From NCBI GenBank assembly GCA_963921795.1, contig OY997653.1:6244104-6308103 (forward strand): a stretch of 64,000 nucleotides of DNA, given 5' to 3'. Source of the stretch: Nannobrachium achirus (lineage: Eukaryota; Chordata; Actinopteri; Myctophiformes; Myctophidae). The position numbers and the translations under genes are program-made. The notes beneath the pieces were generated by a model, which searched no databases, was not told where the DNA came from, and saw nothing but the letters and a program-made list of their open reading frames with translations. Each line of letters starts with the position of its first letter. Within the stretch, counting starts at the first letter, position 1. Below, one piece after another: positions 3,301 to 30,600 of the stretch.

Positions 3301-4057
3301 AGTTGCAGTTCCGACTCGGAACCAACAGGCTGTCACGGTGGCCAAGTGCCTGGTTAAACACTGGATCCAAACTTATGGGGTCCCAGCCCGGCTGCATTCC
3401 GACCAAGGCCGGTGTTTCGAAGGTGAGGTGGTGCGGTCGCTTTGTAAGTTGTATGGGATGAAGAAGAGTAGGACGAGCCCTTATCATCCACAGGGCAATG
3501 GGCAGTGCGAAAGGTTTAACCGAACCCTCCATGACCTGCTCCGGGCTCTGCCCCCGGAGAAGAAGAGGAGGTGGGCGGAATACCTGCCGGAGGTGGTGTA
3601 TGCTTACAATACGACAGAACACCAGAGCACGGGATATTCCCCATATTTTCTCTTGTTTGGCCGGTCTCCTTGCACTCCCCTAGACCTCATGTTGGGGGGA
3701 GCGGATGAGGAGGTGGGAGGTGTGGGAGAATGGGTGCAGAGGCATCAAGAGCGACTGCAGGTAGCTTACAAGCAGGCTAGTGGCCAGATGCAAAAGGCAG
3801 CAGAGTCTCGCCGTCGGCATTGGGGGCCAGCATCCAAGGATGCAGATTTACAGCCAGGAGAGTTGGTTTATGTGCGGAATCGGAAGGTGGTTGGTAGGAA
3901 TAAGATTCAGGACTTATGGCTCTCGATTCCTCATATAATAATCAGTCGGTTGAGTCCCAAAAAGCCGGTGTATACTGTGATGCCTGCTGATGCGATGGGA
4001 CCGCCCAGGACTGTGCACCGCTCGGAGCTCCGGCGGTGTGGTAAGGGCGTAAGGTAA
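335..4057 (+). CDS. pol: Ty3/gypsy Pol polyprotein (protease, RT, RNase H, integrase)
   Basis: The 1,240-codon frame encodes the replication enzymes of a metavirus-type retrotransposon. Visible in order are the protease LIDSGS motif (residues 6-11), the RT fingers and palm from about residue 325 including LDLASGYNQVEM (about 414), RNase H with IDAS (D638) and LTDNNPL (about 706), an integrase HHCC zinc domain (about 897-935), and an integrase core with D964, D1023 and E1059, giving an exact DD35E spacing. The RT catalytic box reads YLDN at residues 476-479 instead of YLDD, which should abolish polymerase chemistry. The protease frame opens directly after a run of seven G at about 327-333, where the preceding frame (about 229-334) meets a TGA, so the first Met is probably not a real start. 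A TAA at 4055-4057 ends the frame, but similar coding continues in phase afterwards. The family call is firm; activity is unlikely. Confidence 0.92.
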   Translation: MKFHCLIDSGSNVSSVTESFFFKHLLPKWGKRLSECGWLTLSGAHGLNIPYLGYFTTDVEAVALGRTIPQRGILVVKDPIGQAAKERKQAVPGLLGMNVIKTCYQLLCPAQGPSPPLPLPDAPGWQTALAACQNEQAVTLKSKMFAAAASPFTVPAGSVCFVPATGPNSLCLSRASVLVEPLGLEEGSLPGGLLVSNTYVEASNGHLAVPVINVGSSDIRLEPQTRLASLHLAEVVAGEVGAVHFERVGPQEEQVMIREQHGSQGDGELSLEIAALRFPGFSEDQARQARQLLGKFSHVFASSDSDLGCTNLISHGIPVVDDVPVSQRYRRIPPSQYEEVKNHIKKLLEQKVIRESSSPYSSPLVIVRKKDGSMRLCVDYRRLNAKTRKDAFPLPRIEESLDSLSGARWFSTLDLASGYNQVEMVEGDRSKTAFCTPFGLYDFNRMPFGLCNAPGTFQRLMERILGDQRFQSLLLYLDNVVVFSSTFEEHLRRLELVLLRFEQCNLKVKFSKCSFFKSEVSYLGHVISSQGVSTDPAKIRAVAEWKSPRNGAELASFLGFASFYRRFVKNFAGLAAPLHALSALGSPKKGGRPLPTHVFQRHWSPACEEAFQNLKQKLVSAPVLAYADFAKPFTLEIDASHQGLGAVLSQESGGRRRPVAYASRGLRSSERNMENYSSMKLELLGLKWAVTDKFREYLIGNKFTVLTDNNPLSHLQTARLGAVEQRWVSEELARFDYEIVYRPGRQNGAADALSRQYSNVVSELEPVLSCPGLHPRDDSPRPEELRAAWNEEQAVVDTPANVSTTTFPSYSMDYLALLQQADPDVASFLKYWRRGERPDKGARRTESTRVLELLRQWERVVEREGVLYRMRTNPREGQQEQVILPRALHKEVLVQMHGGHGHQGIERTFKLVSGRCYWPGMYRDVEDFCKSCERCIVSKAPQPRVVTAMGGLLASRPLEVVAMDFTVLESSSDGRENVLVLTDVFTKFTVAVPTRNQQAVTVAKCLVKHWIQTYGVPARLHSDQGRCFEGEVVRSLCKLYGMKKSRTSPYHPQGNGQCERFNRTLHDLLRALPPEKKRRWAEYLPEVVYAYNTTEHQSTGYSPYFLLFGRSPCTPLDLMLGGADEEVGGVGEWVQRHQERLQVAYKQASGQMQKAAESRRRHWGPASKDADLQPGELVYVRNRKVVGRNKIQDLWLSIPHIIISRLSPKKPVYTVMPADAMGPPRTVHRSELRRCGKGVR

Positions 4058-9230: not shown

Positions 9231-9825
9231 TGTATGTAAACCGTTCTTCCTACCGGCACGCGCGTTCTCCAGATATGGGCATAAAACCAGTAAGACTCCC
9301 TAATCGGGAGATAAGCGACCGTAGGTGGCTTATCTTCACAAATAGGGCAAAAATTTGTTTTTCCAAAATCTTCCTGATCCATGTTGATGACATGAGTGTA
9401 GACATGCTGTGTAGTGATATTCGTGATTTTAGGGCAAAAACTGTAGGTGCAGTGTCCAAAAATGTGTTTTAAAAATTGGCCTGAAGGTGGCGCTAGAATA
9501 GGGCCATGTGAGAAATGAGGGGTGGGGTCTCCGCGTTGCCTTGGCGGACGAATAGGTACCGGCCCCGGCTCTCCCGGACGCTCCTAGCCCGAGTTACGGC
9601 ATTTTATGTGCGCTGCAGTGGCAGGGGGTCCTCCACTGGGGGCGCCACCACTTTTGCATCCATTCTGGAGCACCAGGAGTCGGTGGTCCCCGGGAATTCC
9701 CCGTGAGCAGCCCCGTTGGGGTGGTCATTTGGTCATTTTTGCACATTTGGTCATTTTTTACATATGGGGGTCCCCCAGGTCCTGGGGCTCCGGGGGTCCT
9801 TGGAGGTTGTAGTTTGGCAGGCAAG

Positions 9826-9870: not shown

Positions 9871-10284
9871 CTGGCATGGATCGGGTCAACGGGTGAGGAG
9901 ATATAAGCAGGGGAAAAGTGTGACGTGTGACGTGTGAGCACATTTGGTCATTTTTTACATCTGGGGGTCCCTGGGGCTCTGTGGGTCCTTGGAGGTTGTA
10001 GTTTGGCAGTCAAGGAGTGTGTGTGCAAAAATTGGCAAGGATGGGGGCAACGGTTGTGGAGATATGAGCAGGGCAAAAGTGTGACGGACGGACGGACTGA
10101 CTCACTCACTCACCCACGGACAGCCGGTGGAGGTTTTGGTAGTAAATGCGACCTACGGTCGCAATGAATGCCCGTTTGCGGAGCTGATGTCTGACATCAG
10201 AGTTTTCAGCAACCGGTACTGTGTGTGCAAAGATCTCCATACATGGGCATAAGGGGACAAAGGCAAACAGATGGTCAAAACGGG
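9231..10284. repeat. Dispersed fish repeat copy (GGTGGCGCTA / GACGGACGG family)
   Basis: The region contains AGACTCCCTAATCGGGAGAT (about 9,291), a block like GGTGGCGCTAGAATAGGGCC (9,487), a GC-rich block at 9,520-9,790, GACGGACGGACGG at 10,083, and a GGTGGAGGTTTTGGTAGTAA end. Related copies lie at 28.1-29.4 kb and 54.7-55.7 kb. The block at 9,520-9,790 recurs inverted at about 31,060-31,290. No gene is supported. Confidence 0.7.
9829..9865. repeat. (TG)n microsatellite
   Basis: Uninterrupted TG dinucleotides within the dispersed repeat. Confidence 0.95.
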
Positions 10285-10292
10285 TCCTATGA
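10285..10292. other. Target-site duplication, left copy (TCCTATGA)
   Basis: TCCTATGA immediately precedes the left terminus GTAGTCTTATTATACACTAT of the 17.8-kb element and is repeated exactly at 28,087-28,094. The sequence AAAACGGGTCCTATGA containing it also occurs uninterrupted at about 30,277-30,292 in a related repeat. Confidence 0.9.
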
Positions 10293-10559
10293 GTAGTCTT
10301 ATTATACACTATATGTGTGCAGAATTCCTACCACTAGGGGGCGCTGTTTTAATTAATGCATAATTAATTAGATGGATTAAAATATTTTAATTAATGAATA
10401 AATTAGTATAAATTAATTGAATAAAAATTTTAAAATCTGCATATTTAATATAATCATAACTAATATTTTATAGTGTTATGGTTTTATGTTTTATATTGTT
10501 GGTTTATAAGTTTTTAAAAGTACTACAGTATGCAAGAGTTGAGGAGAGGAGGAGAAGAC

Positions 10560-10660
10560 AGGAGGAGAGAGAGAGAGAGAGAGGGAGGGAGAGAGGGAGG
10601 GGTGGTGAAAGGGAAGGGGGGTAAAGTGACAGCAATCATGGATGTCACAATAATCGGTTG

Positions 10661-10742
<82 letters not shown>
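10560..10742. repeat. (GA)n and (TG)n microsatellites, left arm
   Basis: A GA/GGGA-rich tract (about 10,560-10,605) is followed by about 40 TG dinucleotides (10,663-10,742). The mirror tracts in the right arm have a different length and composition. Confidence 0.95.
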
Positions 10743-10743
<1 letters not shown>

Positions 10744-10961
10744 CAATCAGTCAATGGTGTGGGTTGTTTCTAACTGTAACATTACAGCAACATGATTGGG
10801 GCAATGGAATATTGTATGATGTGTATGTAATAAATAGATAATGTACTACATCTAGGCCATCTGTGTCTGTCCATCTGTTTGCAATATTGCACCAACTTCT
10901 TTTTCTCGTTCCAACGTACGTTGTCTGTATAAAGAGTGATAAGAAAACAATACCTACTGTA

Positions 10962-11036
10962 TTAAAAATAGCCAATCTACAAACTCACAACATTACACTG
11001 CAATATCATATTATGCATTGTGTATCTGATATTTTA
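10962..11036. repeat. Palindromic motif copy in left arm (diverged)
   Basis: AAAAATAGCCAATCTACAAA is followed by a variable middle and a degenerate reverse complement ending at GATATTTTA. It belongs to the same palindrome family as the hairpins at 36-58 kb. The mirror copy is at about 27,352-27,425. Confidence 0.6.
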
Positions 11037-11277
11037 GGCATCAGTTCTACAGTGTTAACAACTTTATAGTAACTCTGAGGATATTATCTGACATTAAGCA
11101 ATAAGCATATTTAACCACATGAACCCTTCTAGGCAAAAGCTTTATTGCTTATAATGTGTATGATTTGACACATTCACGAGGGGATACGGTCAGAAATGGT
11201 ACTGCAGTTGTATAGTTTTATTAACTGTTTAATTCGTGTGCATGTTTTAATGATGACATAGAGTGGAGGAGAGATGA

Positions 11278-11325
11278 GAAGACAGGAGGGGAGGGGGAGA
11301 GAGCGAGAGAGAGAGCGAGAGAGAG

Positions 11326-11363
<38 letters not shown>

Positions 11364-11370
11364 AGGGAGG
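11278..11370. repeat. (GA)n microsatellite, left arm
   Basis: GAGAGCGAGAGA-type tract. The mirror is a CT tract at about 26,996-27,100. Reading frames across it are low-complexity artefacts. Confidence 0.95.
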
Positions 11371-11924
11371 GAGGAACGGGAGTCCCTATCAAAAAAGTAG
11401 CACCAGGTGGCTATAGACTTATCTTTTAAGATCTCCGGGGGGTCTGTGTCTGCATGTTAGTGTTGGAGAGAGAGAAGTAGAGAGAGAGAAGAGAGAGAGA
11501 AAGTGCATGTGTAATGATAACTGTCATACCTGTGCAACTCCTTGTAGATGTGCAACTGTTGACCAACTTTTATTCTGAGCTAGAAATAACTAGAATAAAA
11601 ACACTGATAGTGTGTTGTCATGGTAGGGTCATAGGGATATGTATGGCCACTAGTGGTACTGCATGAGAGGTCTTTGCATGAGAGGTAGCGTTTTCAGGCC
11701 ATCGGCTCCTAGTTGAGAGAGATGAAGTAGGGACCATCGCAACCTTTTCAGAGATTCATATAGTTTCAATGTTTGACCGCTCAGACATCAGTGTATTTTG
11801 GATTCATGTCAATGGCTCTTTTTTCATACTGTATATTTAACCACTTGAGCCATCATTACCTAATAAATTGGTATTATAATATGTACTCGGTCTGCTATTT
11901 TGTCCCCCTACACCAAACCTCTTT

Positions 11925-12000
11925 GCGAAAATAGCCAATCTGCAAGCTCACAACGTCTCGCAGTGCGAAACATTGTATGCATGTAGATCTGCTATTTTTG
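11925..12000. repeat. Palindromic motif copy in left arm
   Basis: GAAAATAGCCAATCTGCAAG begins the left half and ATGTAGATCTGCTATTTT ends the right half, with a CpG-containing middle. The mirror copy is at 26,369-26,443. Confidence 0.7.
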
Positions 12001-12949
12001 TGTACAGTTCTACAGTGTTAATATAAAATGATTGGAAGCTTTTGAGGACCCCCTTTACTAACTCTGAAGCCCTTAGTTGATATTAAACCTACATTATAAT
12101 TTAGTTTCATCTACACCTGTGATTTCAAAACCCTTCCACCCATGCATAGTCATATTGGGTACTGTATGACAGGGTGCACAAATATATTTCCTTATCAAGG
12201 TATCTAATTACCCTTATCTGACCCCCCACAGATGACACCAAGAGGGTACTCTATATCTTTATCTCTGATCATACTAGCAGTAGCTGATCTGTCATTTGAA
12301 AGTGTTACACGACAATCAACCTTTCGATAAAACATAATATGATCATAGGCCATACCATGGTTTTATAGGGTAAAAAGAAATAAAATCATGTGTAAAAGTA
12401 GGTGAAATAACTACATGTTGTACCAAGTGTCCCAACTGTGCTTAGTTAATCCTAAACTTCCTCATTTTTCACAAGTATTCTTATCTACACTACCCAGATG
12501 ACACCAAGTAGGGTACTATGCTATCTTTATCTCTTATCACACTAACATTAGGTAGCATGTTATTTGAAAGCTTCTCATAACTAATCAGCCATTCGATAAA
12601 ATATAATGTGATCATAGGCCATACCATGGTTTTATAGGGTAAAAATAAATAAAATCAACGTTTAAGTAAATGATATAACTACATATGTTTGCTAAGGGTC
12701 CCAACTGTGCTTAGTTAATCCATTTCTTCTATACAAAGTTCCTCATTCTTCAACCACCAAGTTTTTTCTTATCTAATTTTCATCACAGATACTAGGAAAG
12801 AGCTTTTAATATAATCACTAACAGAGTTCTGAGGTATTGTTCTTCAACCCATTCTGTACGGACATGGGAGGTTTTTCGGGGTTTTTACTGACACTAGAAA
12901 ACAAAATCATTGCATTTTGGAATTTGCTTATTTCTTGAACATAATTCAA

Positions 12950-14400
12950 GTGACAGATACACAAACAAGCAGGGATTTTGTGATTTTTAGCACCAGCATG
13001 TAGATCTGCTATTTTATGTGTTTAGGCATTTGTTAATATAAAAATGATTGGAAGATATTGATTACCCTCTGTTGTAACTCTATTTGATATTAAAACTACA
13101 GATAGTTTCATCTGCATCTATAATTCAAACCCTCCCCACCTCAAACTCTGACATAGTGGTCAGTAGTGGTACTACACATGACAATGTCCTAATGTTACAA
13201 AGATGACATGTTAGCAGGGGTGGATTTGGTATTGTCATAGGAACATGTGTGGTCACTTATGGCCACTAGTGGTACTACACCGCTAGAATAATAACTATTT
13301 CTCATTAACATTACATAAATGAGAGAGGAATCCAGCTTGTAGATAAGCTATTTTCACTAGTTTGACTAACTATACTACTTATAGTTGTATTGTGGAGGTC
13401 TAATCTGTGTTCTCAAGACACTAGATTATTCAAACTATTTACCTCAACATGACCAAAGTGTTGCATAGTAATACATTTAACTTAGATATGCTGTCAACCA
13501 AACCGGGTTGTCCCAGTCATGTATATATTAGGTGTTTTGCACTGAATGCAATGATATTGGATAGAACTGACAATACACATGACAATGTCCTAATATTAGA
13601 AAGAATTATAGAGTGTCAGCTTGTAGATCTGCTATTTTCACATTTGTTTTTTCTTTGTTGCACAGACGTGCATAGACCCAGGGGGAAGGGTGCTTATCTT
13701 TAGAATCCATACACCTGATTGCAGTAAAAACAGTTTAAAGACTATGACACACTAATGCAACTCCTTGTGTCACCCCATCTTACATTTATTTTGTATAATA
13801 ATTAAATTAGATGTACAGTATGTTAGTTTTGTAGATTTGTGATTTTTAACCCCGGGACTCCAAGATAGGAGATGTGTTAATTGTGGACATAGCTTATATC
13901 TATTATTTCCATTGGGTGGTTGGTATGAAACATGACTATGTCCTAATGTTACAAAGATGACAAAGATTTGGTATTGTCATAGGAACATGTATGGTCACTA
14001 ATGGTCACAAGTGGTACTGCAGCTGTGAAATTGTATTTCTATTGTCCATTAATAATTATATTTGCATGTAGCTTGTAGATTTTGTTATTTTGAGTACCAG
14101 CTTGTAGATGAGCTATATTGAACCCATAGGCTAACAGCTTTGCAGATGTGTTATTTTGGGGTAATACCTTGCCTACCTATTATTTTCACTGGGATGTGAT
14201 GTACGTGGGGTTGTCCCTGTTGAATAATATATTGGAATATGGTGTGATTTAAGGGTTAGGGTTAGGGTTAGGGGGATTATTTGTATGGCCACTATAGTGG
14301 TACTACACCGCTAGAATAATAACTCTATTTCTCATTAACATTACATAAATGAGAGAGGAATACAGCTTGTAGATCAGCTATTTTCACATTTATTTTTTCA
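12950..14400 (+). repeat. Cluster of half-palindrome motifs in left arm
   Basis: At least seven copies of an AGCTTGTAGATCTGCTATTT-like motif lie here in the same orientation (about 13,000, 13,334, 13,618, 14,067, 14,097, 14,364 and weaker ones). They are interspersed with CACTAGTGGTACTRCA and AATGTTACAAAGATGACA blocks. The stretch looks like a decayed higher-order array. The mirror is at about 23,980-25,420. Confidence 0.6.
14253..14273 (+). repeat. Telomere-like (GGGTTA)n run
   Basis: About three and a half TTAGGG units. The mirror CCCTAA run is at 24,095-24,117. Confidence 0.8.
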
Positions 14401-15164
14401 TTGTAAGAACATGGGTGGTCACTAGTGTCCACTAGTGGTACTGCAGCTGATGTAAAACAATTGTATTGTTTGTTTGTTTATTTTTTAGCTATTCATGGTC
14501 ATCTCAGAGAGATGAAAAATAACCTTATACTTAGCATTGTAGCCACTTGAACCCTATCTAAGCAAAAACGGCCTATCTACAAAGGTTATCTAAAATACAA
14601 TGGAGGGGCATTACATGAACAGTTTAAAATTTTTAAAGTTTTGTGCCATTTGTCCAATACGCTGAAAACATGTATTAGTAGTAGTATATTATGGGGTTCA
14701 AATACTAGGTATTCCTTAAAATATTAAAACTAAATATTGTGTTTAACCTAAAGATTTATCTTTACATACAGCACCTTTACATATAGAATTCCAGGTATGC
14801 TTATGCAATGGGAAATTCAAATCCGTCATATGAAATTATGGATTACTAAGTTGACAGATGTATGTGAAATAGCGATATCTGTTGGGGTGAATCACTAACA
14901 ACAGCATGTGTATTTCTTGTAATTGATGGAATAGGGAGATTATATATTATTTTTTGACAAACTAAATTGAAATGCCATTATATTTACCGTACAACCCTAT
15001 TATTTTATCCTGTTACTTCCATCCTATATGGTAGATATTCACTAAACGTGTAAGCCTTAGAAACGCCTTAATGGACTTAGTATTTTTAAAGCAAATAATC
15101 GTTTCACTCATACAATAGTTTAGTTTTATTTAAAAATAATACTTTGACAGTAGTTGGGAAAATA

Positions 15165-16830
15165 GTGCCATCTAGTGGATATAGTTTTTCTACCCTGAAC
15201 TTTGCAGCTTGAATGACTGATGAGGGAAAATACTGCCCTCTGGAGGATGTAGGGGAAATACCACCCCCTGGAGGATACAGGGGGAATACCAAATCATACT
15301 GTACATACATATAATGAACTCGAATGTATGACACCATCCACTCACTCATCACTAAGAATTTCAACTAACACAAAACAGACAAAACTAAATATTACTGCAC
15401 AAACATCTCTAAGAAAATTTAAACTAATACAAAACAGACAAAAATAACGCTACTAAGAAATTTAAACTAACACAAAAACAGACAAAAACATCACGAGTCA
15501 TCTAGATTACCATAGGTTCCGCAACTATCACTATTGCAGAGTCAGTAGCTTAGGTTACTCGTTGTGCTAAGGTATTGTTAATCTTTGAATTTGTAGATAA
15601 AACATATTTCTAGTGTTAGTGGTTAGATCATACATAATCTCACAATCTCTCTCTCCAACACAATTTCACTCATAATTTCTGTTTTCTTTTTTTTGTTCTC
15701 CTTTTTTTCCCTCTAAGCCATAACAACTAGTAAACATAACTAATACGGTAGTTGCTCAGTACACCGTTTCACTCATACAATAACTTATATTATTTAGAAA
15801 TAATGCTTTGACAGTAGTAGGGAAAATAGTGCCATCTAGTGGATATGACAAGTTTCTCTACCCCTGAACCATGTCACCAGAAGGATATAGAGTGGAAATA
15901 CTGCCCCCCTGGAGGATGTAGGGGAAATACCATGCATACTCATATTTAGGGATTGAATCCTTTTAGCAATAAGCTACAGATACAGATAACTAGAAAAACT
16001 AGCAGATCTATAGTCCCATCGAATATCAATACAATTAACATACAATGCTTTCCCCCTTCATCCCTATCCCACTGGTCATGTGTAACATAGTTTTTCTTTT
16101 CCTGGGGTGAGACACTAGCTAGATCTGTCTACACAAATCATACTCAGTAAATCAATTTGGTAGACATACTGGTTTGCCACCAACATAATTATCTTACACT
16201 TTATATTCTGACACTCTGGTCTACTCGTTACACGATGTGTCACTACTCTGCATAGCAAAACACTATTCATCTGTACAAACCATGCACTTCCTCATTCAAC
16301 ACTAAAACGCACAAAACATAAAATATAGCCACCTAACAGAAAGTATTACAAAAAATAACCACTGAGATTTCCAATGAGCACACAAACCGTACATAAACAG
16401 CAAATATTGCAAACATAACATCACAGAGATTTACAAACTAACACAAAACAAAAACAAAAACAGTAAATATTGCAAACAACGTCACTGAGAAGTAGAACTA
16501 ACACAAAACCAATGCACTGTACAAACATCTCTAAGAAAATTTTAACTAATACAAAACAGACAAAAATAACACCACTAAGAATTTCATTCAACACTAAAAC
16601 GCACAAAACATACAACTTTACCACATAACAGACACATTTTACAAAAATAACACCACTAAGAATTTTCAACTAGCATAAAAAACACAAAACATAAAACTTT
16701 TGCAATACAACAGAAAGTATTACAAAAATAACATCACTAAGAATGTTCAACTAGCCCCTAAAACTTTGCAACATAACAAAAATATTTAAAAAAAATAACA
16801 CCACTAAGAAATTGAAACTAGAAACTAGAA
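15165..16830. repeat. Minisatellite-like blocks, left arm
   Basis: Two mixed families are present. One carries GTGCCATCTAGTGGATAT and CCTGGAGGATGTAGGGGAAA blocks (about 15,165-15,290 and 15,820-15,930). The other consists of roughly 40-60-bp units built on ACTAAGAATTTCAACTAACA and ACAAAACAGACAAAAATAAC (about 15,350-15,495 and 16,300-16,830). The mirrors are at 21,530-23,200. Confidence 0.7.
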
Positions 16831-17801
16831 AACATGTTGGACTCTCTTTCATACATAATCTCTCAATCTCTCTCTCCAACACAATTTCACTCATAATTTC
16901 TCTGTTTTCTTCTTTCTTTTTTATCTCTCTAAGCCATAACAACTAGTAAACATAACTAATACGGTAGTGCACAGTACACTATTTCATCAAAATCGGTAAC
17001 CTATTTGGTAATAACTTTATGGTTATGATTCTATAAAATCTAAAAAACATTTGTAATTCAACCAAAATGTAATTCTGGAGTTTACTAAAATTGTACAATG
17101 GGAGCTAAATCAAAATAGTATATATCTATTAATACAAATATATATATTTTTTTAAGTTGTCTGATTTACACATTATTGTAGTAATTTAGTGTTGAGAATT
17201 GTTGTGTCACCACATGTGTGGTGAATTGTAACTTGAACGATATTACGGTGATATATACTTTTTACTATTATTGATGCCTTACAATTGTCTAAATAACTAT
17301 ATGAATATGGGGAATAAATCACTGATACTGCTAATATTTTACTTTTGTAGTTTATTCTGTTAGGTACACTGCATTATTCAAGTTAGTAACAAGAAAAAGT
17401 ACACTCTGATTATGCCCACCAACACCATTCAATATTTTATCAATCATTTCAGATACTCAAATACTAATATAATAATAATTATGAGGTCTCTAAAATGCTT
17501 CTAAGTGCTAGGTCTGTTTACTGACCTGTGCTTTTCCTATGCACATTTTCTAATAAAGTACCCTATTCAATCAATCTAAGGCTAGCTAATATTAGTATTC
17601 TTTTTTTTTTTTTTTTTTTCATATAGGGAGTTATGAATCAACATACTGTTTAACAAAACCATTTGTTTTGAAAAGTACAGTCAATAAAGCTGTTACTGTT
17701 AAGGTAAGAAATCTGGTTGCCAAGAAAGGATAAAGAAAAAATAACCATGTTTTAAACACGTGTTTTTTTATTTTTTTCCAAAGAATGTACATATGATCAC
17801 A

Positions 17802-18251
17802 CCGAGTGTGTTTCATACTAGGACCTATGCAGGTTACCCGTACTGTTACAGTATGGGATATATGTAGGCCTATTGGTAAAATATTTGCACACAAAACATT
17901 ACTAGTCATATTATGCACATAGGATAACATTAATATACTCAGTGATCATTAAATATATTTTCTCCCTCATTATTACCCGTATGAATGAACACCATAGCTA
18001 TTGAAAATGGTGTAAAATACATGTATATCATTTTTGGTTACATTAGAAGTGAGCTAGCTGACCCCTCTAGTGAAACAAAACTAATTTCAAAGCTATTGCA
18101 GTAAAACCAACATTTAATTGAACAAAATACTACCAATACCAAATATTCAGTATATCAGTATATTTTATTTTGACAAGAAAAACATGAACAAGTATTTACA
18201 TGTATAATGATGCACAATGTCACCGTATAATCACGGTTGTTAGAACTCTAA
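17802..18251 (-). repeat. Core 3' block, copy 1 (downstream of gene 1)
   Basis: About 17,836-18,210 is a direct repeat of 19,198-19,562, sharing GGTAAAATATTTGCACACAA and AATGAACACCATAGCTATTG. Read on the minus strand, it follows the gene at 18,252-19,085 and supplies the AATAAA signal at 18,164-18,169. Confidence 0.85.
18164..18169 (-). terminator. Poly(A) signal AATAAA for gene 1
   Basis: AATAAA on the minus strand, about 83 nt past the gene 1 stop codon, inside the duplicated 3' block. Confidence 0.6.
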
Positions 18252-19085
18252 CTATAATTTTAATTCGAGAAGCCCGTTGTTAAGGCTATGTATGAGTTCT
18301 GTCATTTTTTGGTAACAGTTTTGTACATGATTACCAGCTGAACGTCCGCATAAGTAACACCATTCCTGTGTTGCCAGTGTCACATATATCCTGTTTGTTA
18401 ATTTCACTTCGGGTAGTTTCCATGCATCGGGGGCTGTGATTATGTTTGGATGTGCAATAAATCCTCTGCGGAATCTCTCCTGACCAATTGCAATCTTTAG
18501 CCGGTCGGGTGTATAGTTTGCTTTGAGATACGGACATTCTCCTCTGCTGTAGAATGCATGTTGATTTAAAAGTGTATCGCCTGGCAGAAACTTTGAAAGC
18601 AGAAGGCGGCAGGCTCCGCAGCGATGATTATCCCCTACCCCTGTATGCTCCATGTTAGCCGGTTCCCCTAACCATGCAAACTGTGATGATTTCAAATTGA
18701 AAACACTATCATTGTTTGAATTGCTGTCGGATACGTGCTGTGGTGGAAGACCACATAGAAAAGCTTCAGATGTGTATATTGAATGATCATCTGGTGGGAT
18801 ATTTTTCCCTCCATTAGTATCATTCATCCATTTAATTCGACCATGCATAAGTCCATCAAAATAGGGATCTATGCCTGTGGGGACATATTCTCCATCTTTA
18901 AAAATGATTCCTGGGAAGATTGTGGGCTTTCCATCTTTCTCGTTAAAGTCGAAGGATTTTTCTACATCTTTAGCGAAGGTGTAAAATGCATTGGTCGCTG
19001 CTTCGCCAGAATCCTGTTTTTCTAGCCCCAATTCACGGGTGTTATCCATTTTTTTTGAAAAAAGAGACTGCAGCAGACTTCCCAT
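18252..19085 (-). CDS. Unassigned Cys/His-rich protein, core gene 1 of the palindromic element
   Basis: An uninterrupted 277-codon frame with mixed, non-repetitive composition. Two putative zinc-binding clusters are visible: CGAC followed by a His and a Cys (CxxC...H...C, about residues 158-187), and CYLCGRSAGNHVQNC near the C-terminus (CxxC, H, C; about 244-258). No signal peptide or membrane segment is evident. The longest start (19,085) has A at -3 and G at +4, but a TATAAAAA box ends only about 8 nt upstream. Transcripts starting 25-30 nt below it would use the second Met (19,049), also in good context, giving 265 aa. The gene is single-exon, TATA-driven and has its own poly(A) signal, a compact layout typical of DNA viruses and some transposons. 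I do not recognise the family. Confidence 0.7.
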   Translation of the reverse strand: MGSLLQSLFSKKMDNTRELGLEKQDSGEAATNAFYTFAKDVEKSFDFNEKDGKPTIFPGIIFKDGEYVPTGIDPYFDGLMHGRIKWMNDTNGGKNIPPDDHSIYTSEAFLCGLPPQHVSDSNSNNDSVFNLKSSQFAWLGEPANMEHTGVGDNHRCGACRLLLSKFLPGDTLLNQHAFYSRGECPYLKANYTPDRLKIAIGQERFRRGFIAHPNIITAPDAWKLPEVKLTNRIYVTLATQEWCYLCGRSAGNHVQNCYQKMTELIHSLNNGLLELKL

Positions 19086-19092
19086 TCTCCTT

Positions 19093-19100
19093 TTTTATAT
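19093..19100 (-). promoter_or_regulatory. TATA box of core gene 1
   Basis: Minus strand GTAGATATAAAAAAGGAG, with a GGGGCGTTGA element about 25 nt further upstream. Confidence 0.5.
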
Positions 19101-19515
19101 CTACAGCTTTTCAACGCCCCTTAATGCGTTGTACCGAGCATCCGGCGCATACTATGACATAGGCTATTACATAGGCTATAGGCTATTACATAGGCTATTA
19201 CCCATCTGTAACAGTATGGGATATGTGCATTGGTAAAATATTTGCACACAAAACATTACTATATGACAAATGGAATAACATTAATATACCCAGTGATCAT
19301 TAAATACATTTTCCCCTCATTATTACCCATATGAATGAACACCATAGCTATTGAAAATGGTGTAAAATACATGTATATAATTTTGGCTACATTAGAAGTG
19401 AGCTAAACTGACCTCTCTAGTGATACAAAAACTAATTTCAAAGCTATTACAGTAAAACCTCCATTTAATTGAACAAAATACTACCAATACCATATATTCA
19501 GTATATCAGTATATT

Positions 19516-19521
19516 TTTATT
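19516..19521 (-). terminator. Poly(A) signal AATAAA for gene 2
   Basis: AATAAA on the minus strand, about 190 nt past the gene 2 stop, in the same relative place of the duplicated block as the gene 1 signal. Confidence 0.55.
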
Positions 19522-19713
19522 TTGACAAGAAAAAACATAAACAAGTATTTACAAGGATAATCATAGTCAATACAACTGACAAAACATTACTATATGTCAA
19601 ATGACACAGTGGTAACAAAATATACACAGAGTTCATTAAATAAATGAATATGAACATGATCACCAGTGAAATATACATTATATTCTTCTCAGTAAAATGT
19701 ACATTATTGAGAA

Positions 19714-20415
19714 CTATTGTTCAGTACTTGGTTCTACAGATGGTGAGTTCTTCCAAAAAGTAACAAGATTGTTCAGTACATCATGTTTCTTTGAGTTTCC
19801 ACCCAACACATGTTCGAAATTAATTGTCTCTTCGATCTTTTCTGGAATATCTTCCACCTCCTTCAGATCGTGTAGAAAGGCTTCACACATCCCTTGAACT
19901 CGGGATGGTATGACATCGAATCCATGAGTTTCCAGCACACTCATGACCCCCAATATGAATCGACCATTCCAAAGTCTTTTGATTAATTCATTAAAATGAT
20001 TGAATACATAATATCTTGGTAATGGATACAGACATTGATGGTTTGTCTGACTAGGATGATCTGTTTGACAACCGTAGCAGGCTTCTTTCATCTGGTCAAA
20101 TATTACCACATCCAATAGCTTCGAGACACATACTTTTACAATGTCAAGAAGCATTATATTCCCCAGACAATCAGGCTGGCTTAGAGTCGAAAATGAATTA
20201 GATGGTCTGGGTGGTGAAGGCGGTGGTGAGAAGTAGGGTGTAGAATAGCCTACAGGTGATGGTGGAGGAGTACCAGGGACTGGATAGTATTCTTCATTCG
20301 TTTCAGACATGAAATCCGCCCATGGCCCAAATTCTACAGCTTCCTCTGGAAGAGTAGTGGTAGAGTCAGGCTTGTCATTGTCAACTTCTTCTCTTCTTTC
20401 AGTAGATTCCTCCAT
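19714..20415 (-). CDS. Unassigned protein with Pro-rich linker and CxxC/HPSQ/HxC motif, core gene 2
   Basis: The protein is 233 aa from the Met at 20,415, chosen because ACCATGG is a strong Kozak site and a GATATAAGG TATA-like box lies about 40 nt upstream; the frame is open upstream to 20,499, but that part looks like promoter sequence. The N-terminus is acidic and disordered, followed by a Pro-rich stretch (TPPPSPVGY, SPPPSPPRPS). The C-terminal half is globular and carries CYGCQTDHPSQTNHQCL, a compact Cys/His motif (CxxC, HPSQ, HxC) suited to zinc binding. No membrane segment or signal peptide is apparent. It shares promoter style, strand, single-exon form and a duplicated 3' block with gene 1, suggesting the pair arose by duplication of an expression unit or functions together. 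The motif seems family-like, but I cannot name the family. Confidence 0.7.
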   Translation of the reverse strand: MEESTERREEVDNDKPDSTTTLPEEAVEFGPWADFMSETNEEYYPVPGTPPPSPVGYSTPYFSPPPSPPRPSNSFSTLSQPDCLGNIMLLDIVKVCVSKLLDVVIFDQMKEACYGCQTDHPSQTNHQCLYPLPRYYVFNHFNELIKRLWNGRFILGVMSVLETHGFDVIPSRVQGMCEAFLHDLKEVEDIPEKIEETINFEHVLGGNSKKHDVLNNLVTFWKNSPSVEPSTEQ

Positions 20416-20449
20416 GGTTACTGGTGTAGAGCACCGTACGCTGAATACC

Positions 20450-20460
20450 CTTATATCGTG
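20450..20460 (-). promoter_or_regulatory. TATA-like box of core gene 2
   Basis: Minus strand CACGATATAAGGGTATT, about 40 nt above the chosen ATG. A CCACGCCTATTCCCC element lies just upstream, comparable to the GC-rich element in front of gene 1. Confidence 0.45.
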
Positions 20461-21529
20461 TATGGGGAATAGGCGTGGTTGGTAGGGAGGGTGGAACAAT
20501 AAGGGGGGTGTATGACCCTAGCTAGATATAGGTAATTAGTTCAACCCATGTTAACCCATCATTAATGTGATCATATGTACATTCTTTGGAAAAAAATAAA
20601 AAAACACGTGTTTAAAACATGGTTATTTTTTCTTTATCCTTTCTTGGCAACCAGATTTCTTACCTTAACAGTAACAGCTTTATTGACTGTACTTTTCAAA
20701 ACAAATGGTTTTGTTAAACAGTATGTTGATTCATAACTCCCTATATGAAAAAAAAAAAAGAAAAAAAGAATACTAATATTAGCTAGCCTTAGATTGATTG
20801 AATAGGGTACTTTATTAGAAAATGTGCATAGGAAAAGCACAGGTCAGTAAACAGACCTAGCACTTAGAAGCATTTTAGAGACCTCATAATTATTATTATA
20901 TTAGTATTTGAGTATCTGAAATGATTGATAAAATATTGAATGGTGTTGGTGGGCATAATCAGAGTGTACTTTTTCTTGTTACTAACTTGAATAATGCAGT
21001 GTACCTAACAGAATAAACTACAAAAGTAAAATATTAGCAGTATCAGTGATTTATTCCCCATATTCATATAGTTATTTAGACAATTGTAAGGCATCAATAA
21101 TAGTAAAAAGTATATATCACCGTAATATCGTTCAAGTTACAATTCACCACACATGTGGTGACACAACAATTCTCAACACTAAATTACTACAATAATGTGT
21201 AAATCAGACAACTTAAAAAAAAATATATATTTGTATTAATAGATATATACTATTTTGATTTAGCTCCCATTGTACAATTTTAGTAAACTCCAGAATTACA
21301 TTTTGGTTGAATTACAAATGTTTTTTAGATTTTATAGAATCATAACCATAAAGTTATTACCAAATAGGTTACCGATTTTGATGAAATAGTGTACTGTGCA
21401 CTACCGTATTAGTTATGTTTACTAGTTGTTATGGCTTAGAGAGATAAAAAAGAAAGAAGAAAACAGAGAAATTATGAGTGAAATTGTGTTGGAGAGAGAG
21501 ATTGAGAGATTATGTATGAAAGAGAGTCC

Positions 21530-23200
21530 AACATGTTTTCTAGTTTCTAGTTTCAATTTCTTAGTGGTGTTATTTTTTTTAAATATTTTTGTTATGTTGC
21601 AAAGTTTTAGGGGCTAGTTGAACATTCTTAGTGATGTTATTTTTGTAATACTTTCTGTTGTATTGCAAAAGTTTTATGTTTTGTGTTTTTTATGCTAGTT
21701 GAAAATTCTTAGTGGTGTTATTTTTGTAAAATGTGTCTGTTATGTGGTAAAGTTGTATGTTTTGTGCGTTTTAGTGTTGAATGAAATTCTTAGTGGTGTT
21801 ATTTTTGTCTGTTTTGTATTAGTTAAAATTTTCTTAGAGATGTTTGTACAGTGCATTGGTTTTGTGTTAGTTCTACTTCTCAGTGACGTTGTTTGCAATA
21901 TTTACTGTTTTTGTTTTTGTTTTGTGTTAGTTTGTAATTCTCTGTGATGTTATGTTTGCAATATTTGCTGTTTATGTACGGTTTGTGTGCTCATTGGAAA
22001 TCTCAGTGGTTATTTTTTGTAATACTTTCTGTTAGGTGGCTATATTTTATGTTTTGTGCGTTTTAGTGTTGAATGAGGAAGTGCATGGTTTGTACAGATG
22101 AATAGTGTTTTGCTATGCAGAGTAGTGACACATCGTGTAACGAGTAGACCAGAGTGTCAGAATATAAAGTGTAAGATAATTATGTTGGTGGCAAACCAGT
22201 ATGTCTACCAAATTGATTTACTGAGTATGATTTGTGTAGACAGATCTAGCTAGTGTCTCACCCCAGGAAAAGAAAAACTATGTTACACATGACCAGTGGG
22301 ATAGGGATGAAGGGGGAAAGCATTGTATGTTAATTGTATTGATATTCGATGGGACTATAGATCTGCTAGTTTTTCTAGTTATCTGTATCTGTAGCTTATT
22401 GCTAAAAGGATTCAATCCCTAAATATGAGTATGCATGGTATTTCCCCTACATCCTCCAGGGGGGCAGTATTTCCACTCTATATCCTTCTGGTGACATGGT
22501 TCAGGGGTAGAGAAACTTGTCATATCCACTAGATGGCACTATTTTCCCTACTACTGTCAAAGCATTATTTCTAAATAATATAAGTTATTGTATGAGTGAA
22601 ACGGTGTACTGAGCAACTACCGTATTAGTTATGTTTACTAGTTGTTATGGCTTAGAGGGAAAAAAAGGAGAAAAAAAAAAAGAAAACAGAAATTATGAGT
22701 GAAATTGTGTTGGAGAGAGAGATTGTGAGATTATGTATGATCTAACCACTAACACTAGAAATATGTTTTATCTACAAATTCAAAGATTAACAATACCTTA
22801 GCACAACGAGTAACCTAAGCTACTGACTCTGCAATAGTGATAGTTGCGGAACCTATGGTAATCTAGATGACTCGTGATGTTTTTGTCTGTTTTTGTGTTA
22901 GTTTAAATTTCTTAGTAGCGTTATTTTTGTCTGTTTTGTATTAGTTTAAATTTTCTTAGAGATGTTTGTGCAGTAATATTTAGTTTTGTCTGTTTTGTGT
23001 TAGTTGAAATTCTTAGTGATGAGTGAGTGGATGGTGTCATACATTCGAGTTCATTATATGTATGTACAGTATGATTTGGTATTCCCCCTGTATCCTCCAG
23101 GGGGTGGTATTTCCCCTACATCCTCCAGAGGGCAGTATTTTCCCTCATCAGTCATTCAAGCTGCAAAGTTCAGGGTAGAAAAACTATATCCACTAGATGG
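21530..23200. repeat. Minisatellite-like blocks, right arm
   Basis: Mirror of 15,165-16,830. Low-complexity frames such as the one at 21,699-21,947 arise from these units. Confidence 0.7.
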
Positions 23201-24094
23201 CACTATTTTCCCAACTACTGTCAAAGTATTATTTTTAAATAAAACTAAACTATTGTATGAGTGAAACGATTATTTGCTTTAAAAATACTAAGTCCATTAA
23301 GGCGTTTCTAAGGCTTACACGTTTAGTGAATATCTACCATATAGGATGGAAGTAACAGGATAAAATAATAGGGTTGTACGGTAAATATAATGGCATTTCA
23401 ATTTAGTTTGTCAAAAAATAATATATAATCTCCCTATTCCATCAATTACAAGAAATACACATGCTGTTGTTAGTGATTCACCCCAACAGATATCGCTATT
23501 TCACATACATCTGTCAATTTAGTAATCCATAATTTCATATGACGGATTTGAATTTCCCATTGCATAAGCATACCTGGAATTCTATATGTAAAGGTGCTGT
23601 ATGTAAAGATAAATCTTTAGGTTAAACACAATATTTAGTTTTAATATTTTAAGGAATACCTAGTATTTGAACCCCATAATATACTACTACTAATACATGT
23701 TTTCAGCGTATTGGACAAATGGCACAAAACTTTAAAAATTTTAAACTGTTCATGTAATGCCCCTCCATTGTATTTTAGATAACCTTTGTAGATAGGCCGT
23801 TTTTGCTTAGATAGGGTTCAAGTGGCTACAATGCTAAGTATAAGGTTATTTTTCATCTCTCTGAGATGACCATGAATAGCTAAAAAATAAACAAACAAAC
23901 AATACAATTGTTTTACATCAGCTGCAGTACCACTAGTGGACACTAGTGACCACCCATGTTCTTACAATGAAAAAATAAATGTGAAAATAGCTGATCTACA
24001 AGCTGTATTCCTCTCTCATTTATGTAATGTTAATGAGAAATAGAGTTATTATTCTAGCGGTGTAGTACCACTATAGTGGCCATACAAATAATCC

Positions 24095-24117
24095 CCCTAA
24101 CCCTAACCCTAACCCTT
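24095..24117 (-). repeat. Telomere-like (CCCTAA)n run, right arm
   Basis: Mirror of 14,253-14,273. Confidence 0.8.
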
Positions 24118-26368
24118 AAATCACACCATATTCCAATATATTATTCAACAGGGACAACCCCACGTACATCACATCCCAGTGAAAATAATAGGTAGGCAAG
24201 GTATTACCCCAAAATAACACATCTGCAAAGCTGTTAGCCTATGGGTTCAATATAGCTCATCTACAAGCTGGTACTCAAAATAACAAAATCTACAAGCTAC
24301 ATGCAAATATAATTATTAATGGACAATAGAAATACAATTTCACAGCTGCAGTACCACTTGTGACCATTAGTGACCATACATGTTCCTATGACAATACCAA
24401 ATCTTTGTCGTCTTTGTAACATTAGGACATAGTCATGTTTCATACCAACCACCCAATGGAAATAATAGATATAAGCTATGTCCACAATTAACACATCTCC
24501 TATCTTGGAGTCCCGGGGTTAAAAATCACAAATCTACAAAACTAACATACTGTACATCTAATTTAATTATTATACAAAATAAATGTAAGATGGGGTGACA
24601 CAAGGAGTTGCATTAGTGTGTCATAGTCTTTAAACTGTTTTTACTGCAATCAGGTGTATGGATTCTAAAGATAAGCACCCTTCCCCCTGGGTCTATGCAC
24701 GTCTGTGCAACAAAGAAAAAACAAATGTGAAAATAGCAGATCTACAAGCTGACACTCTATAATTCTTTCTAATATTAGGACATTGTCATGTGTATTGTCA
24801 GTTCTATCCAATATCATTGCATTCAGTGCAAAACACCTAATATATACATGACTGGGACAACCCGGTTTGGTTGACAGCATATCTAAGTTAAATGTATTAC
24901 TATGCAACACTTTGGTCATGTTGAGGTAAATAGTTTGAATAATCTAGTGTCTTGAGAACACAGATTAGACCTCCACAATACAACTATAAGTAGTATAGTT
25001 AGTCAAACTAGTGAAAATAGCTTATCTACAAGCTGGATTCCTCTCTCATTTATGTAATGTTAATGAGAAATAGTTATTATTCTAGCGGTGTAGTACCACT
25101 AGTGGCCATAAGTGACCACACATGTTCCTATGACAATACCAAATCCACCCCTGCTAACATGTCATCTTTGTAACATTAGGACATTGTCATGTGTAGTACC
25201 ACTACTGACCACTATGTCAGAGTTTGAGGTGGGGAGGGTTTGAATTATAGATGCAGATGAAACTATCTGTAGTTTTAATATCAAATAGAGTTACAACAGA
25301 GGGTAATCAATATCTTCCAATCATTTTTATATTAACAAATGCCTAAACACATAAAATAGCAGATCTACATGCTGGTGCTAAAAATCACAAAATCCCTGCT
25401 TGTTTGTGTATCTGTCACTTGAATTATGTTCAAGAAATAAGCAAATTCCAAAATGCAATGATTTTGTTTTCTAGTGTCAGTAAAAACCCCGAAAAACCTC
25501 CCATGTCCGTACAGAATGGGTTGAAGAACAATACCTCAGAACTCTGTTAGTGATTATATTAAAAGCTCTTTCCTAGTATCTGTGATGAAAATTAGATAAG
25601 AAAAAACTTGGTGGTTGAAGAATGAGGAACTTTGTATAGAAGAAATGGATTAACTAAGCACAGTTGGGACCCTTAGCAAACATATGTAGTTATATCATTT
25701 ACTTAAACGTTGATTTTATTTATTTTTACCCTATAAAACCATGGTATGGCCTATGATCACATTATATTTTATCGAATGGCTGATTAGTTATGAGAAGCTT
25801 TCAAATAACATGCTACCTAATGTTAGTGTGATAAGAGATAAAGATAGCATAGTACCCTACTTGGTGTCATCTGGGTAGTGTAGATAAGAATACTTGTGAA
25901 AAATGAGGAAGTTTAGGATTAACTAAGCACAGTTGGGACACTTGGTACAACATGTAGTTATTTCACCTACTTTTACACATGATTTTATTTCTTTTTACCC
26001 TATAAAACCATGGTATGGCCTATGATCATATTATGTTTTATCGAAAGGTTGATTGTCGTGTAACACTTTCAAATGACAGATCAGCTACTGCTAGTATGAT
26101 CAGAGATAAAGATATAGAGTACCCTCTTGGTGTCATCTGTGGGGGGTCAGATAAGGGTAATTAGATACCTTGATAAGGAAATATATTTGTGCACCCTGTC
26201 ATACAGTACCCAATATGACTATGCATGGGTGGAAGGGTTTTGAAATCACAGGTGTAGATGAAACTAAATTATAATGTAGGTTTAATATCAACTAAGGGCT
26301 TCAGAGTTAGTAAAGGGGGTCCTCAAAAGCTTCCAATCATTTTATATTAACACTGTAGAACTGTACAC

Positions 26369-26443
26369 AAAAATAGCAGATCTACATGCATACAATGTTT
26401 CGCACTGCGAGACGTTGTGAGCTTGCAGATTGGCTATTTTCGC
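26369..26443. repeat. Palindromic motif copy in right arm
   Basis: Mirror of the copy at 11,925-12,000: AATAGCAGATCTACATGC ... GCTTGCAGATTGGCTATTTT. Confidence 0.7.
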
Positions 26444-26995
26444 AAAGAGGTTTGGTGTAGGGGGACAAAATAGCAGACCGAGTACATATTATAATACCAA
26501 TTTATTAGGTAATGATGGCTCAAGTGGTTAAATATACAGTATGAAAAAAGAGCCATTGACATGAATCCAAAATACACTGATGTCTGAGCGGTCAAACATT
26601 GAAACTATATGAATCTCTGAAAAGGTTGCGATGGTCCCTACTTCATCTCTCTCAACTAGGAGCCGATGGCCTGAAAACGCTACCTCTCATGCAAAGACCT
26701 CTCATGCAGTACCACTAGTGGCCATACATATCCCTATGACCCTACCATGACAACACACTATCAGTGTTTTTATTCTAGTTATTTCTAGCTCAGAATAAAA
26801 GTTGGTCAACAGTTGCACATCTACAAGGAGTTGCACAGGTATGACAGTTATCATTACACATGCACTTTCTCTCTCTCTTCTCTCTCTCTACTTCTCTCTC
26901 TCCAACACTAACATGCAGACACAGACCCCCCGGAGATCTTAAAAGATAAGTCTATAGCCACCTGGTGCTACTTTTTTGATAGGGACTCCCGTTCC

Positions 26996-27004
26996 TCCCT
27001 CCCT

Positions 27005-27074
<70 letters not shown>

Positions 27075-27100
27075 CTCTCTCTCGCTCTCTCCCCCTCCCC
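26996..27100. repeat. (CT)n microsatellite, right arm
   Basis: CTCTCT tract mirroring the GA tract at 11,278-11,370 but longer and with fewer interruptions. Confidence 0.95.
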
Positions 27101-27351
27101 TCCTGTCTTCTCATCTCTCCTCCACTCTATGTCATCATTAAAACATGCACACGAATTAAACAGTTAATAAAACTATACAACTGCAGTACCATTTCTGACC
27201 GTATCCCCTCGTGAATGTGTCAAATCATACACATTATAAGCAATAAAGCTTTTGCCTAGAAGGGTTCATGTGGTTAAATATGCTTATTGCTTAATGTCAG
27301 ATAATATCCTCAGAGTTACTATAAAGTTGTTAACACTGTAGAACTGATGCC

Positions 27352-27425
27352 TAAAATATCAGATACACAATGCATAATATGATATTGCAGTGTAATGTTG
27401 TGAGTTTGTAGATTGGCTATTTTTA
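27352..27425. repeat. Palindromic motif copy in right arm (diverged)
   Basis: Mirror of 10,962-11,036. Confidence 0.6.
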
Positions 27426-27644
27426 ATACAGTAGGTATTGTTTTCTTATCACTCTTTATACAGACAACGTACGTTGGAACGAGAAAAAGAAGTTGGTGCA
27501 ATATTGCAAACAGATGGACAGACACAGATGGCCTAGATGTAGTACATTATCTATTTATTACATACACATCATACAATATTCCATTGCCCCAATCATGTTG
27601 CTGTAATGTTACAGTTAGAAACAACCCACACCATTGACTGATTG

Positions 27645-27717
<73 letters not shown>

Positions 27718-27850
27718 CAACCGATTATTGTGACATCCATGATTGCTGTCACTTTACCCCCCACCAACCCCCTCCCTTTCACCACCCCTCCCCTTCTTCC
27801 CCTTTTTTTTTCTCTCCCCTCCTCTCCTCCTCTCCTCCATTCTTGCATAC
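27645..27850. repeat. (CA)n and CT-rich tracts, right arm
   Basis: (CA)n at 27,647-27,714, then a CCCTCC/TTTTTTTTCTC tract. It differs from the left-arm counterpart both in CA count and in the homopyrimidine part. Confidence 0.95.
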
Positions 27851-28086
27851 TGTAGTACTTTTAAAAAACTTATAAACCAACAATATAAAACATAAAACCA
27901 TAACACTATAAAATATTAGTTATGATTATATTAAATATGCAGATTTTAAAATTTTTATTCAATTAATTTATACTAATTTATTCATTAATTAAAATATTTT
28001 AATCCATCTAATTAATTATGCATTAATTAAAACAGCGCCCCCTAGTGGTAGGAATTCTGCACACATATAGTGTATAATAAGACTAC

Positions 28087-28094
28087 TCCTATGA
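28087..28094. other. Target-site duplication, right copy (TCCTATGA)
   Basis: Exact repeat of 10,285-10,292, directly after the right terminus ...ATAATAAGACTAC. Confidence 0.9.
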
Positions 28095-28540
28095 CCAGTA
28101 AGACTCCCTAATCGGGAGATAAGCGACCGTTGGTCGCTTATCTCCACAAATAGGCCAAAAGTTTGTTTTACCAATTATCAAGACATACGGGCAGTTGACA
28201 GTTTGCCATGGTTACTCATTGAAGTTGAATCTCCATATATGGAGATAACCTACGCATCACACTAAGTCTGACCTCACCAGCCCATATTTGGGCATGAGCA
28301 ACTTATGTCTCCATATATGGAGATATGATGACATCACACAGTCCTCAGCCGATGATGTGGCGTGATGTCATACAATACACAAACGAGCCCTACAGTATAA
28401 AGGGGCAATTCTTGCCAGGAAAGAAGCATTTCTTCGACTCAGACCTTATCGCCAGGGTTGGCTTATAGCAGCTGTCGGTAGGACCATATATGGATTCTGT
28501 TAGTGTGGATCTCCTAACAGGGCATCATCTGGGATATAAT
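28095..28540. repeat. Dispersed repeat, right flank of the palindromic element
   Basis: It begins CCAGTAAGACTCCCTAATCG, the same block found at about 9,286 in the left flank. CCATATATGGAGAT hairpin-like units are scattered through it. No gene is seen. Confidence 0.65.
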
Positions 28541-29045
28541 CCCTTTTATGCCCATATATGGAGATCCCTAACAGAATCCCTTTCATGCCCATATATGGAG
28601 ATCCCTAACAGAATCCCTTTTATGCCCATATATGGAGATCCCTAACAGCATCCCTTTTATGCCCATATATGGAGATCACTAACAGCTAACAGAATCCCTT
28701 TTATGCCCATATATGGAGATCCCTAACAGAATCCCTTTTATGCCCATATATGGAGATCCCTAACAGAATCCCTTTTATGCCCATATATGGAGATCCCTAA
28801 CAGAATCCCTTTTATGCCCATATATGGAGATCCCTAACAGAATCCCTTTTATGCCCATATATGGAGATCCCTAACAGAATCCCTTGTATGCCCATATAAG
28901 GAGATCCCTAACAGAATCCCTTTTATGCCCATATATGGAGATCCCTAACAGAATCCCTTTTATGCCCATATATTATGGAGAAATCCCTGCTCTGAGTATC
29001 TGACATCAGTGTGATGTCACCTGTTTATGCCCATATATGGAGATC
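28541..29045 (+). repeat. 37-bp tandem array (CCCATATATGGAGATCCC)
   Basis: About twelve near-identical 37-bp units consisting of TATGCCCATATATGGAGATC plus CCTAACAGAATCCCTTT. Each unit contains the small palindrome CCATATATGG. Units are contiguous with no spacers, so this is a minisatellite and not a CRISPR. Confidence 0.95.
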
Positions 29046-29908: not shown

Positions 29909-30600
29909 GGTGGGGCATTCATGGGGTCTGCTCCAAAAAAGAAAAAGAAAATAAAAGAGACAAAGACAAACATAAGACAAGCAACAAAGCGTGGGACTGG
30001 GAGGATGACTTGAATGATGCAGATTTAAGCAGGCTGCGTAATATTCTGCTTAAAGAAGAAACAAACAAAAAGCGACAGAGATCTCATATATGGGCATAAA
30101 ATGGACGCAGATAAACAGATATCTCCATATATGGCATATATGGGCATAAAATGGACCCAGAACTGTATCTGCAGTGATCTCCATATATGGACATAAAATG
30201 GACGCCGACAGATAGATACAGAGATATCTCCATATATGGGCATAAATGGACACAGGCAAACAGATGGTCAAAACGGGTCCTATGACAACAGGTATAATGG
30301 GGTTTGCATTAAAGGGCGGGGCATTCATTCCCTATTTACATTGTTCCGAGTTGGCCAGGTCGCCGACTAGACGGCTTCTAGTAATAATAATGGTAATAAT
30401 AAGGGTAGTAACAATTGTTTTTGGTGTCTACGGCAGGCAGTTTCAATGTTAATGACCATGGCCTGTGTACCCTTTGGAGCCGGTGTACAGTCATTGTACA
30501 TGTCTCATAGTGACCATGGTGCGTGATCACTCGCTGGCTGCCTTTCGTGTACAATTCTGTGCCGACTATGTTTTATCAATGGGGGGCAGCAGAGAGCCAT
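29909..30600. repeat. Dispersed repeat with ATATATGGGCATAAA units
   Basis: 30,070-30,290 has four loose copies of ATATATGGGCATAAAATGGA spaced about 50-60 bp. The rest (30,330-30,600) shows only a short TAATAATAATGGTAATAATA tract. No gene is seen. Confidence 0.6.

Follow-up and report, generated by a model that had tools for sequence, protein, structure and literature searches.

A 17.8-kb element with 7.5-kb inverted arms and a core encoding a BIR-domain protein in the genome of Nannobrachium achirus: a probable foldback-type DNA transposon

What kind of element consists mostly of two very long, nearly identical inverted arms around a core of two genes? This question is raised by a locus in the genome assembly of the myctophid fish Nannobrachium achirus (GCA_963921795.1, contig OY997653.1, positions 6,244,104 to 6,308,103). 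The whole 64,000-nucleotide stretch was analysed and is called the window below, and all coordinates refer to it. An earlier examination of its letters, made without database searches (the sequence-only reading), described an element with inverted arms of about 7.5 kb, exact shared termini, an 8-bp target duplication and a two-gene core, and stated that it matched no class that could be named. Our results suggest, with a probability of roughly 0.6, that the element is a non-autonomous cut-and-paste DNA transposon of the foldback type, the 7.5-kb arms of which would have arisen by template switching or conversion, with a transposase supplied from elsewhere and a conserved pair of genes carried as cargo.

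The element extends from 10293 to 28086 (17,794 bp), and its inverted arms flank a unique core of 2,764 bp (17802-20565). The left arm (10293-17801, plus strand) is 7,509 bp long, and the right arm (20566-28086, minus strand), which is its inverted copy, is 7,521 bp long. The two arms thus account for 15,030 of the 17,794 bp, as expected of a foldback-type transposon. The termini have the sequence GTAGTCTT, and the outermost terminal repeat block on the left side (10293-10537, plus strand) begins with GTAGTCTTATTATACACTAT; the GA-rich stretch behind it is not the same in the two arms. When the 20-base terminus was searched for in the window, allowing up to three mismatches, only two matches were found, one at each end and in inverted orientation (0.01 expected). 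Copies of the 8-bp sequence TCCTATGA lie on either side of the element, at 10285-10292 and at 28087-28094 (both plus strand), which is the target-site duplication expected at the ends of such a transposon. The arm lengths and shared termini proposed in the sequence-only reading were reproduced by the arm alignment and the terminus search, and the proposed duplication was found at both ends.

In the alignment of the two arms, 7,499 columns were aligned, 44 positions were mismatched and 32 columns contained gaps. Most of the mismatches (39 of 44) were located inside three GA/TG simple-repeat stretches, and elsewhere the arms differed at only five of 7,259 positions (0.07% divergence). The blocks in which the inverted repeat was detected include one of 6,360 nt at 100% identity (as printed, a rounded value), one of 701 nt (99%) and one of 240 nt (98%). 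The arms also differ in length by 10 bases in a TG repeat and by 20 bases in a GA repeat, in addition to the divergent GA stretch at approximately 10538-10615.

The left arm is mostly AT-rich and contains degenerate direct repeats, minisatellites, GA/TG tracts and host miniature repeats, and this internal repetition is also typical of foldback-type transposons. It is apparently non-coding, because its longest open frame (92 codons) is no longer than shuffled DNA gives (142 of 200 dinucleotide shuffles contained a frame of at least this length). Pfam families were searched for in the two open reading frames (ORFs) of the core and in 20 of the 40 frames of at least 50 amino acids that overlap the left arm; the other 20 frames, mostly simple-repeat or overlapping ones, and the mirrored right arm were left out of the scan. 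The left-arm frames gave four weak matches below the curated cut-off, one core ORF gave a single weak match to the BIR domain and the other core ORF gave none. A transposase, a polymerase or an integrase was not found in these scanned frames, so that the claim of the sequence-only reading that such proteins are missing holds for the two core ORFs and for half of the left-arm frames, and has been checked to that extent.

A near-palindromic miniature hairpin repeat of 64-71 bp, with ends like AAAATAGCAGATCTACAAGC, is common at this locus (11928-11998, 36506-36576, 47098-47168, 51243-51308, 52476-52541 and 58340-58403). Matches to the repeat ends with up to three mismatches numbered 33 in total, eight in each arm and 17 outside the element (shuffle mean 0.00, n = 100), and those in the arms occupy mirrored positions. 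From this mirroring, it is probable that copying of one arm onto the other followed the insertion of the repeats, which is the simplest account of the arrangement. The complete copy in the left arm (11928-11998, with its mirror at 26370-26440 in the right arm) is 69-82% identical to the host copies (matches of at least 64 bp). Compared with the 0.07% divergence between the arms, this value points to an old insertion of the hairpin repeat and to an equality of the arms that is recent or maintained; judged from these identities, the arms were equalised long after the repeat at 11928-11998 was inserted.

The two ORFs of the core have 280 and 267 codons from stop to stop, and no frame in 200 dinucleotide-shuffled sequences was longer than 203 codons. 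The two-gene core of the sequence-only reading was thus recovered within 17802-20565, although the BIR domain had not been named there. Both genes are located on the minus strand and consist of a single exon. Gene 1 (18252-19049, minus strand) is predicted to encode a BIR-domain protein of 265 amino acids when translation starts where it does in P0001, its closest relative; the longest possible ORF has its start at 19085. The zinc ligands of BIR domains are spaced CX2CX16HX6-8C, and the gene 1 protein has the arrangement CX2CX16HX7C, together with a nearly invariant C-terminal Cys/His motif. Fourteen relatives were found in the databases, with identities of 52-97%, and the zinc ligands were invariant in all 15 aligned rows. 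The Pfam match of the gene 1 protein to the BIR family (E = 9.1e-4, 20.2 bits) was 2.7 bits under the cut-off of 22.9 bits. Among the 14 relatives, all seven that were scanned matched the same family at E = 0.001 or better, three of them above 22.9 bits and one level with it. The profile of the gene 1 family also matched a NAIP chain (E = 5.2e-5).

The AlphaFold model of the gene 1 protein was of low overall quality, with a mean predicted local distance difference test score (pLDDT) of 52, with values of 63-79 in the ten-residue blocks covering residues 141-200. In a Foldseek search with this model, the best 50 of 196 rows were all IAP/BIR entries (top E = 2.7e-3), and no PDB entry was matched at 0.001 or better. 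The zinc ligands and the predicted fold are both those of a BIR domain, and the protein would probably restrain cell death via this domain. A TATA box (TATAAA; 19094-19099, minus strand) is located about 45 bp ahead of the start codon at 19049, and a polyadenylation signal (AATAAA; 18164-18169, minus strand) lies behind the gene, both being assigned by their general motifs.

Gene 2 (19714-20415, minus strand) encodes a protein of 233 amino acids with a Pro-rich N-terminus, a CxxC...HPSQ..HxC motif and a C-terminal part that is predicted to be helical. Three relatives were found in the databases, the third of which is partial, and neither the gene 2 protein nor these relatives matched a Pfam family. 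The predicted model was helical (mean pLDDT of 60), and a structure search with it gave no convincing match. A TATA-like box, GATATAAGG, was recognized by eye ahead of gene 2, and the corresponding AATAAA signal, assigned by the same general motif, is located at 19516-19521 (minus strand). Behind each of the genes lies a 3' module of 366-376 bp (17843-18218 behind gene 1 and 19206-19571 behind gene 2, both minus strand), and the two modules are 92% identical (332 of 362 aligned positions). Because the module is repeated behind each gene, the core looks like two cassettes, which suggests that the cargo was built up from two such gene units.

The foldback-type elements form a recognized group in which the inverted arms are long and often repetitive, and so the statement that no class could be named for this element does not hold. 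The element is best regarded as a variant of this known kind, its unusual features being the arm length of 7.5 kb, the arm identity of 99.9% outside the simple repeats, and the core with a BIR gene and a second gene. According to the cited parts of its descriptions, Galileo, a foldback-like element of the P superfamily in Drosophila, is similar in its long and internally repetitive arms and in its 7- or 8-bp duplications; many of its copies are transposase-less, and its target is palindromic (PMC4168063, PMC3573991). Copy 112, the largest in D. willistoni (9,021 bp), has arms of 4,246 and 4,680 bp, no transposase segment and identical duplications, three other copies carry 8-bp duplications, and the arms are described as growing by tandem repeats, inserted other transposons and recruited internal sequence (PMC4168063). 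The arms of Galileo in D. mojavensis are 18-1,250 bp long, and long arms were proposed to attract recombination and conversion (PMC3573991). On the other hand, the arms in D. willistoni reach at most 4.2-4.7 kb, compared with 7.5 kb here, the duplication consensus of Galileo, GTANTAC, has no match at the present site, and conserved cargo genes do not appear in the cited parts of the descriptions. A P/THAP transposase was not found here in the scanned frames, and a non-autonomous member would lack one.

The Tm1 family (Mutator/Foldback) of root-knot nematodes is similar in its composite arms of variable length, in its duplication length and in the presence of a non-transposase gene inside a member, whereas its duplications are 9 bp long, a Phantom/Mutator-type transposase is predicted in the family and the cargo is different, as far as the cited account goes (PMC3169594). 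Tetris/DAIBAM of Drosophila virilis is also apparently non-autonomous and foldback-like with repeats within the arms, but these are tandem units of about 220 bp, and genes are unmentioned in the cited part of the report (PMC4079207). For plants, the corresponding part of another report describes Mutator-like elements that carry several long terminal repeats (PMC3310237). Among the matches listed in the open PMC literature (titles and abstract openings), there was no description of a BIR-carrying foldback element or of this gene pair.

Several other classes can be compared with the element. Teratorn, the piggyBac-herpesvirus element of medaka, is 41-182 kb long, targets TTAA and has about 90 genes besides its transposase, whereas the present element has two genes and an 8-bp duplication; Teratorn and piggyBac were rejected on the grounds that the duplication is TCCTATGA and not TTAA. 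Polinton/Maverick elements duplicate 6 bp and were rejected in view of the 8-bp duplication; neither a protein-primed polymerase nor an integrase of the Polinton type was found in the scanned frames. The 8-bp duplication is that of hAT elements, and the present target has a central TA (TCC-TA-TGA), as in the Buster group of hAT. The ends of hAT and P elements start with CA.., and the CA(G)-type termini of hAT are replaced by GTAGTC in the present element. A hAT transposase was also not found in the scanned frames, and again a non-autonomous member would lack one. With termini that depart from these starts, and with no transposase in the scanned frames, the superfamily may be hAT, P or another one.

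The insertion site itself was considered as well. The flanks joined without the element give ACGGGTCCTATGACCAGT, which is near-palindromic, with seven of nine symmetric positions over 18 bp, although this is a single site noticed after the fact. The same level was reached by 101 of the 46,172 flanking 18-base windows, and the level of five of six positions over 12 bases by 292 of 46,172. In the cited part of a study of target preference, P and hAT elements both prefer 14-bp motifs around duplications of about 8 bp (PMC3706591). Just beyond the right end, at 28115-28145, GGAGATAAGCGACC and its reverse complement enclose a 3-base loop and form a short hairpin; it lies within a host repeat that also occurs near 9307.

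Several observations weigh against the assignment to a foldback-type transposon. The element was found in one copy only: in the rest of the window (46 kb), nothing except matches to miniature repeats is shared with it, and its mobility is read from the ends and the duplication. A transposase was found neither in the two core ORFs nor in the 20 left-arm frames, and the start GTAGTC is unlike that of hAT and P ends. The paralog of the left flank (30226-30285, a copy of 10233-10292) spans the duplication and then continues with CAACAGG, and the right flank (28095-28174), which begins with CCAGTAAG, matches another repeat of this locus (9287-9366) starting with its first base after the duplication. 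Because both flank paralogs break exactly there, two modules of host repeats also meet at the insertion point, and the ancestral unbroken site is hypothetical. In addition, part of the extreme arm identity may be the assembler's consensus.

The assembly of such an element could be explained as follows. A transposase from another element, probably one of a group with duplications of about 8 bp (hAT or P-like), would bind the outer few hundred bases and insert the element at the near-palindromic site, written as GGTCnTAnGACC. During the repair of excision breaks, template switching between the inverted ends would copy one side onto the other, or else conversion between them would do so, and the arms would be extended in this way to 7.5 kb. 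The terminal repeat would thereby take up host miniature repeats and DNA that had once been internal, and the arms would be kept 99.9% identical. The two genes would be carried as conserved cargo, and the BIR protein of gene 1 could favour the survival of cells whose DNA is broken by the element.

A more specific explanation, which we regard as possible but doubtful, is that the element represents an undescribed family with giant arms, marked not by a transposase but by a selected module of two conserved cassettes (a BIR inhibitor of cell death and its helical Cys/His partner) that would protect the cells it breaks, with the arms re-copied in each transposition cycle. Under this explanation, facing CTCF-like sites might insulate the element as a chromatin loop. 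Exact matches to the CTCF core consensus, as it is generally given, are located 38 bp inside the left end (10331-10344, plus strand) and 38 bp inside the right end (28035-28048, minus strand), and they face each other. With up to one mismatch, ten such sites were found in the window against 0.84 expected, eight of them within the element, where the copies in the two arms are not independent of each other. These core-like sites also include 15165-15178 and 15829-15842, with mirrored copies at 22526-22539 and 23190-23203.

It is unlikely that the element is the remnant of an integrated DNA virus, with the arms as its large terminal inverted repeats and the two compact single-exon genes as the last viral genes. 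The compact genes with their control signals close by would fit such an origin, as would the viral structure matches of the gene 1 model, which include BIR/IAP proteins of numerous DNA viruses of insects, crustaceans and molluscs (the best being granulovirus Iap-3, one match at E = 5.4e-4). However, capsid, polymerase, packaging and integrase proteins were unmatched in the scanned frames, and protein-based scans revealed no relatives of either gene in viral contigs and none of gene 1 in prokaryote genomes. Host miniature repeats moreover sit in the arms, and the 8-bp duplication indicates insertion of the transposase type.

Improbable to a similar degree is an ordinary transposon with 8-bp duplications in which a BIR gene and another gene, both captured from the host, are functionless cargo. 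Transposons commonly capture cargo, BIR domains form an animal family, and the cellular NAIP BIR domains are the best match of the gene 1 profile. Nevertheless, each gene is one uninterrupted open frame, and all four zinc ligands are kept in gene 1 relatives at 54-97% identity, which would suggest prolonged selection instead of a recent capture; the absence of a Pfam family match for gene 2 and its relatives is also not in favour of captured host genes. An artefact of assembly or sequencing, or simply an inverted duplication of the host, is very improbable, even though near-perfect 7.5-kb palindromes are error-prone in assembly and the flanks are repeat-rich, because the arms differ in the TG length, the GA length, the divergent GA stretch and five other bases, which led us to reject an assembly artefact, and because the unique 2.76-kb spacer and an inverted repeat ending on both sides at an exact 8-bp direct repeat are, like these differences, not expected from a fold-back read.

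The 7.5-kb arms, 99.9% identical outside the simple repeats, exceed those of the largest Galileo copy in the cited part of the description (PMC4168063). The growth of a terminal repeat would be made directly visible, with the mirrored trapped host miniature repeats acting as time stamps. If the assignment is true, the conserved BIR gene in a transposase-less element would be a regulator of cell death retained as selfish cargo.

Other features were observed in the window. Three TTAGGG-like units, recognized by eye at about 14251-14273 in the left arm and mirrored in the right arm, form an interstitial telomere-like stretch. A Gypsy-like retrotransposon pol region is located at 311-4057; a single long open frame there contains the domains of reverse transcriptase, RNase H and integrase. 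Satellite or minisatellite arrays occupy 37201-42897, 28538-28973, 42952-43977 and 61041-61651, the largest of which consists of 15.6 copies of a 363-bp unit with 97% matches.

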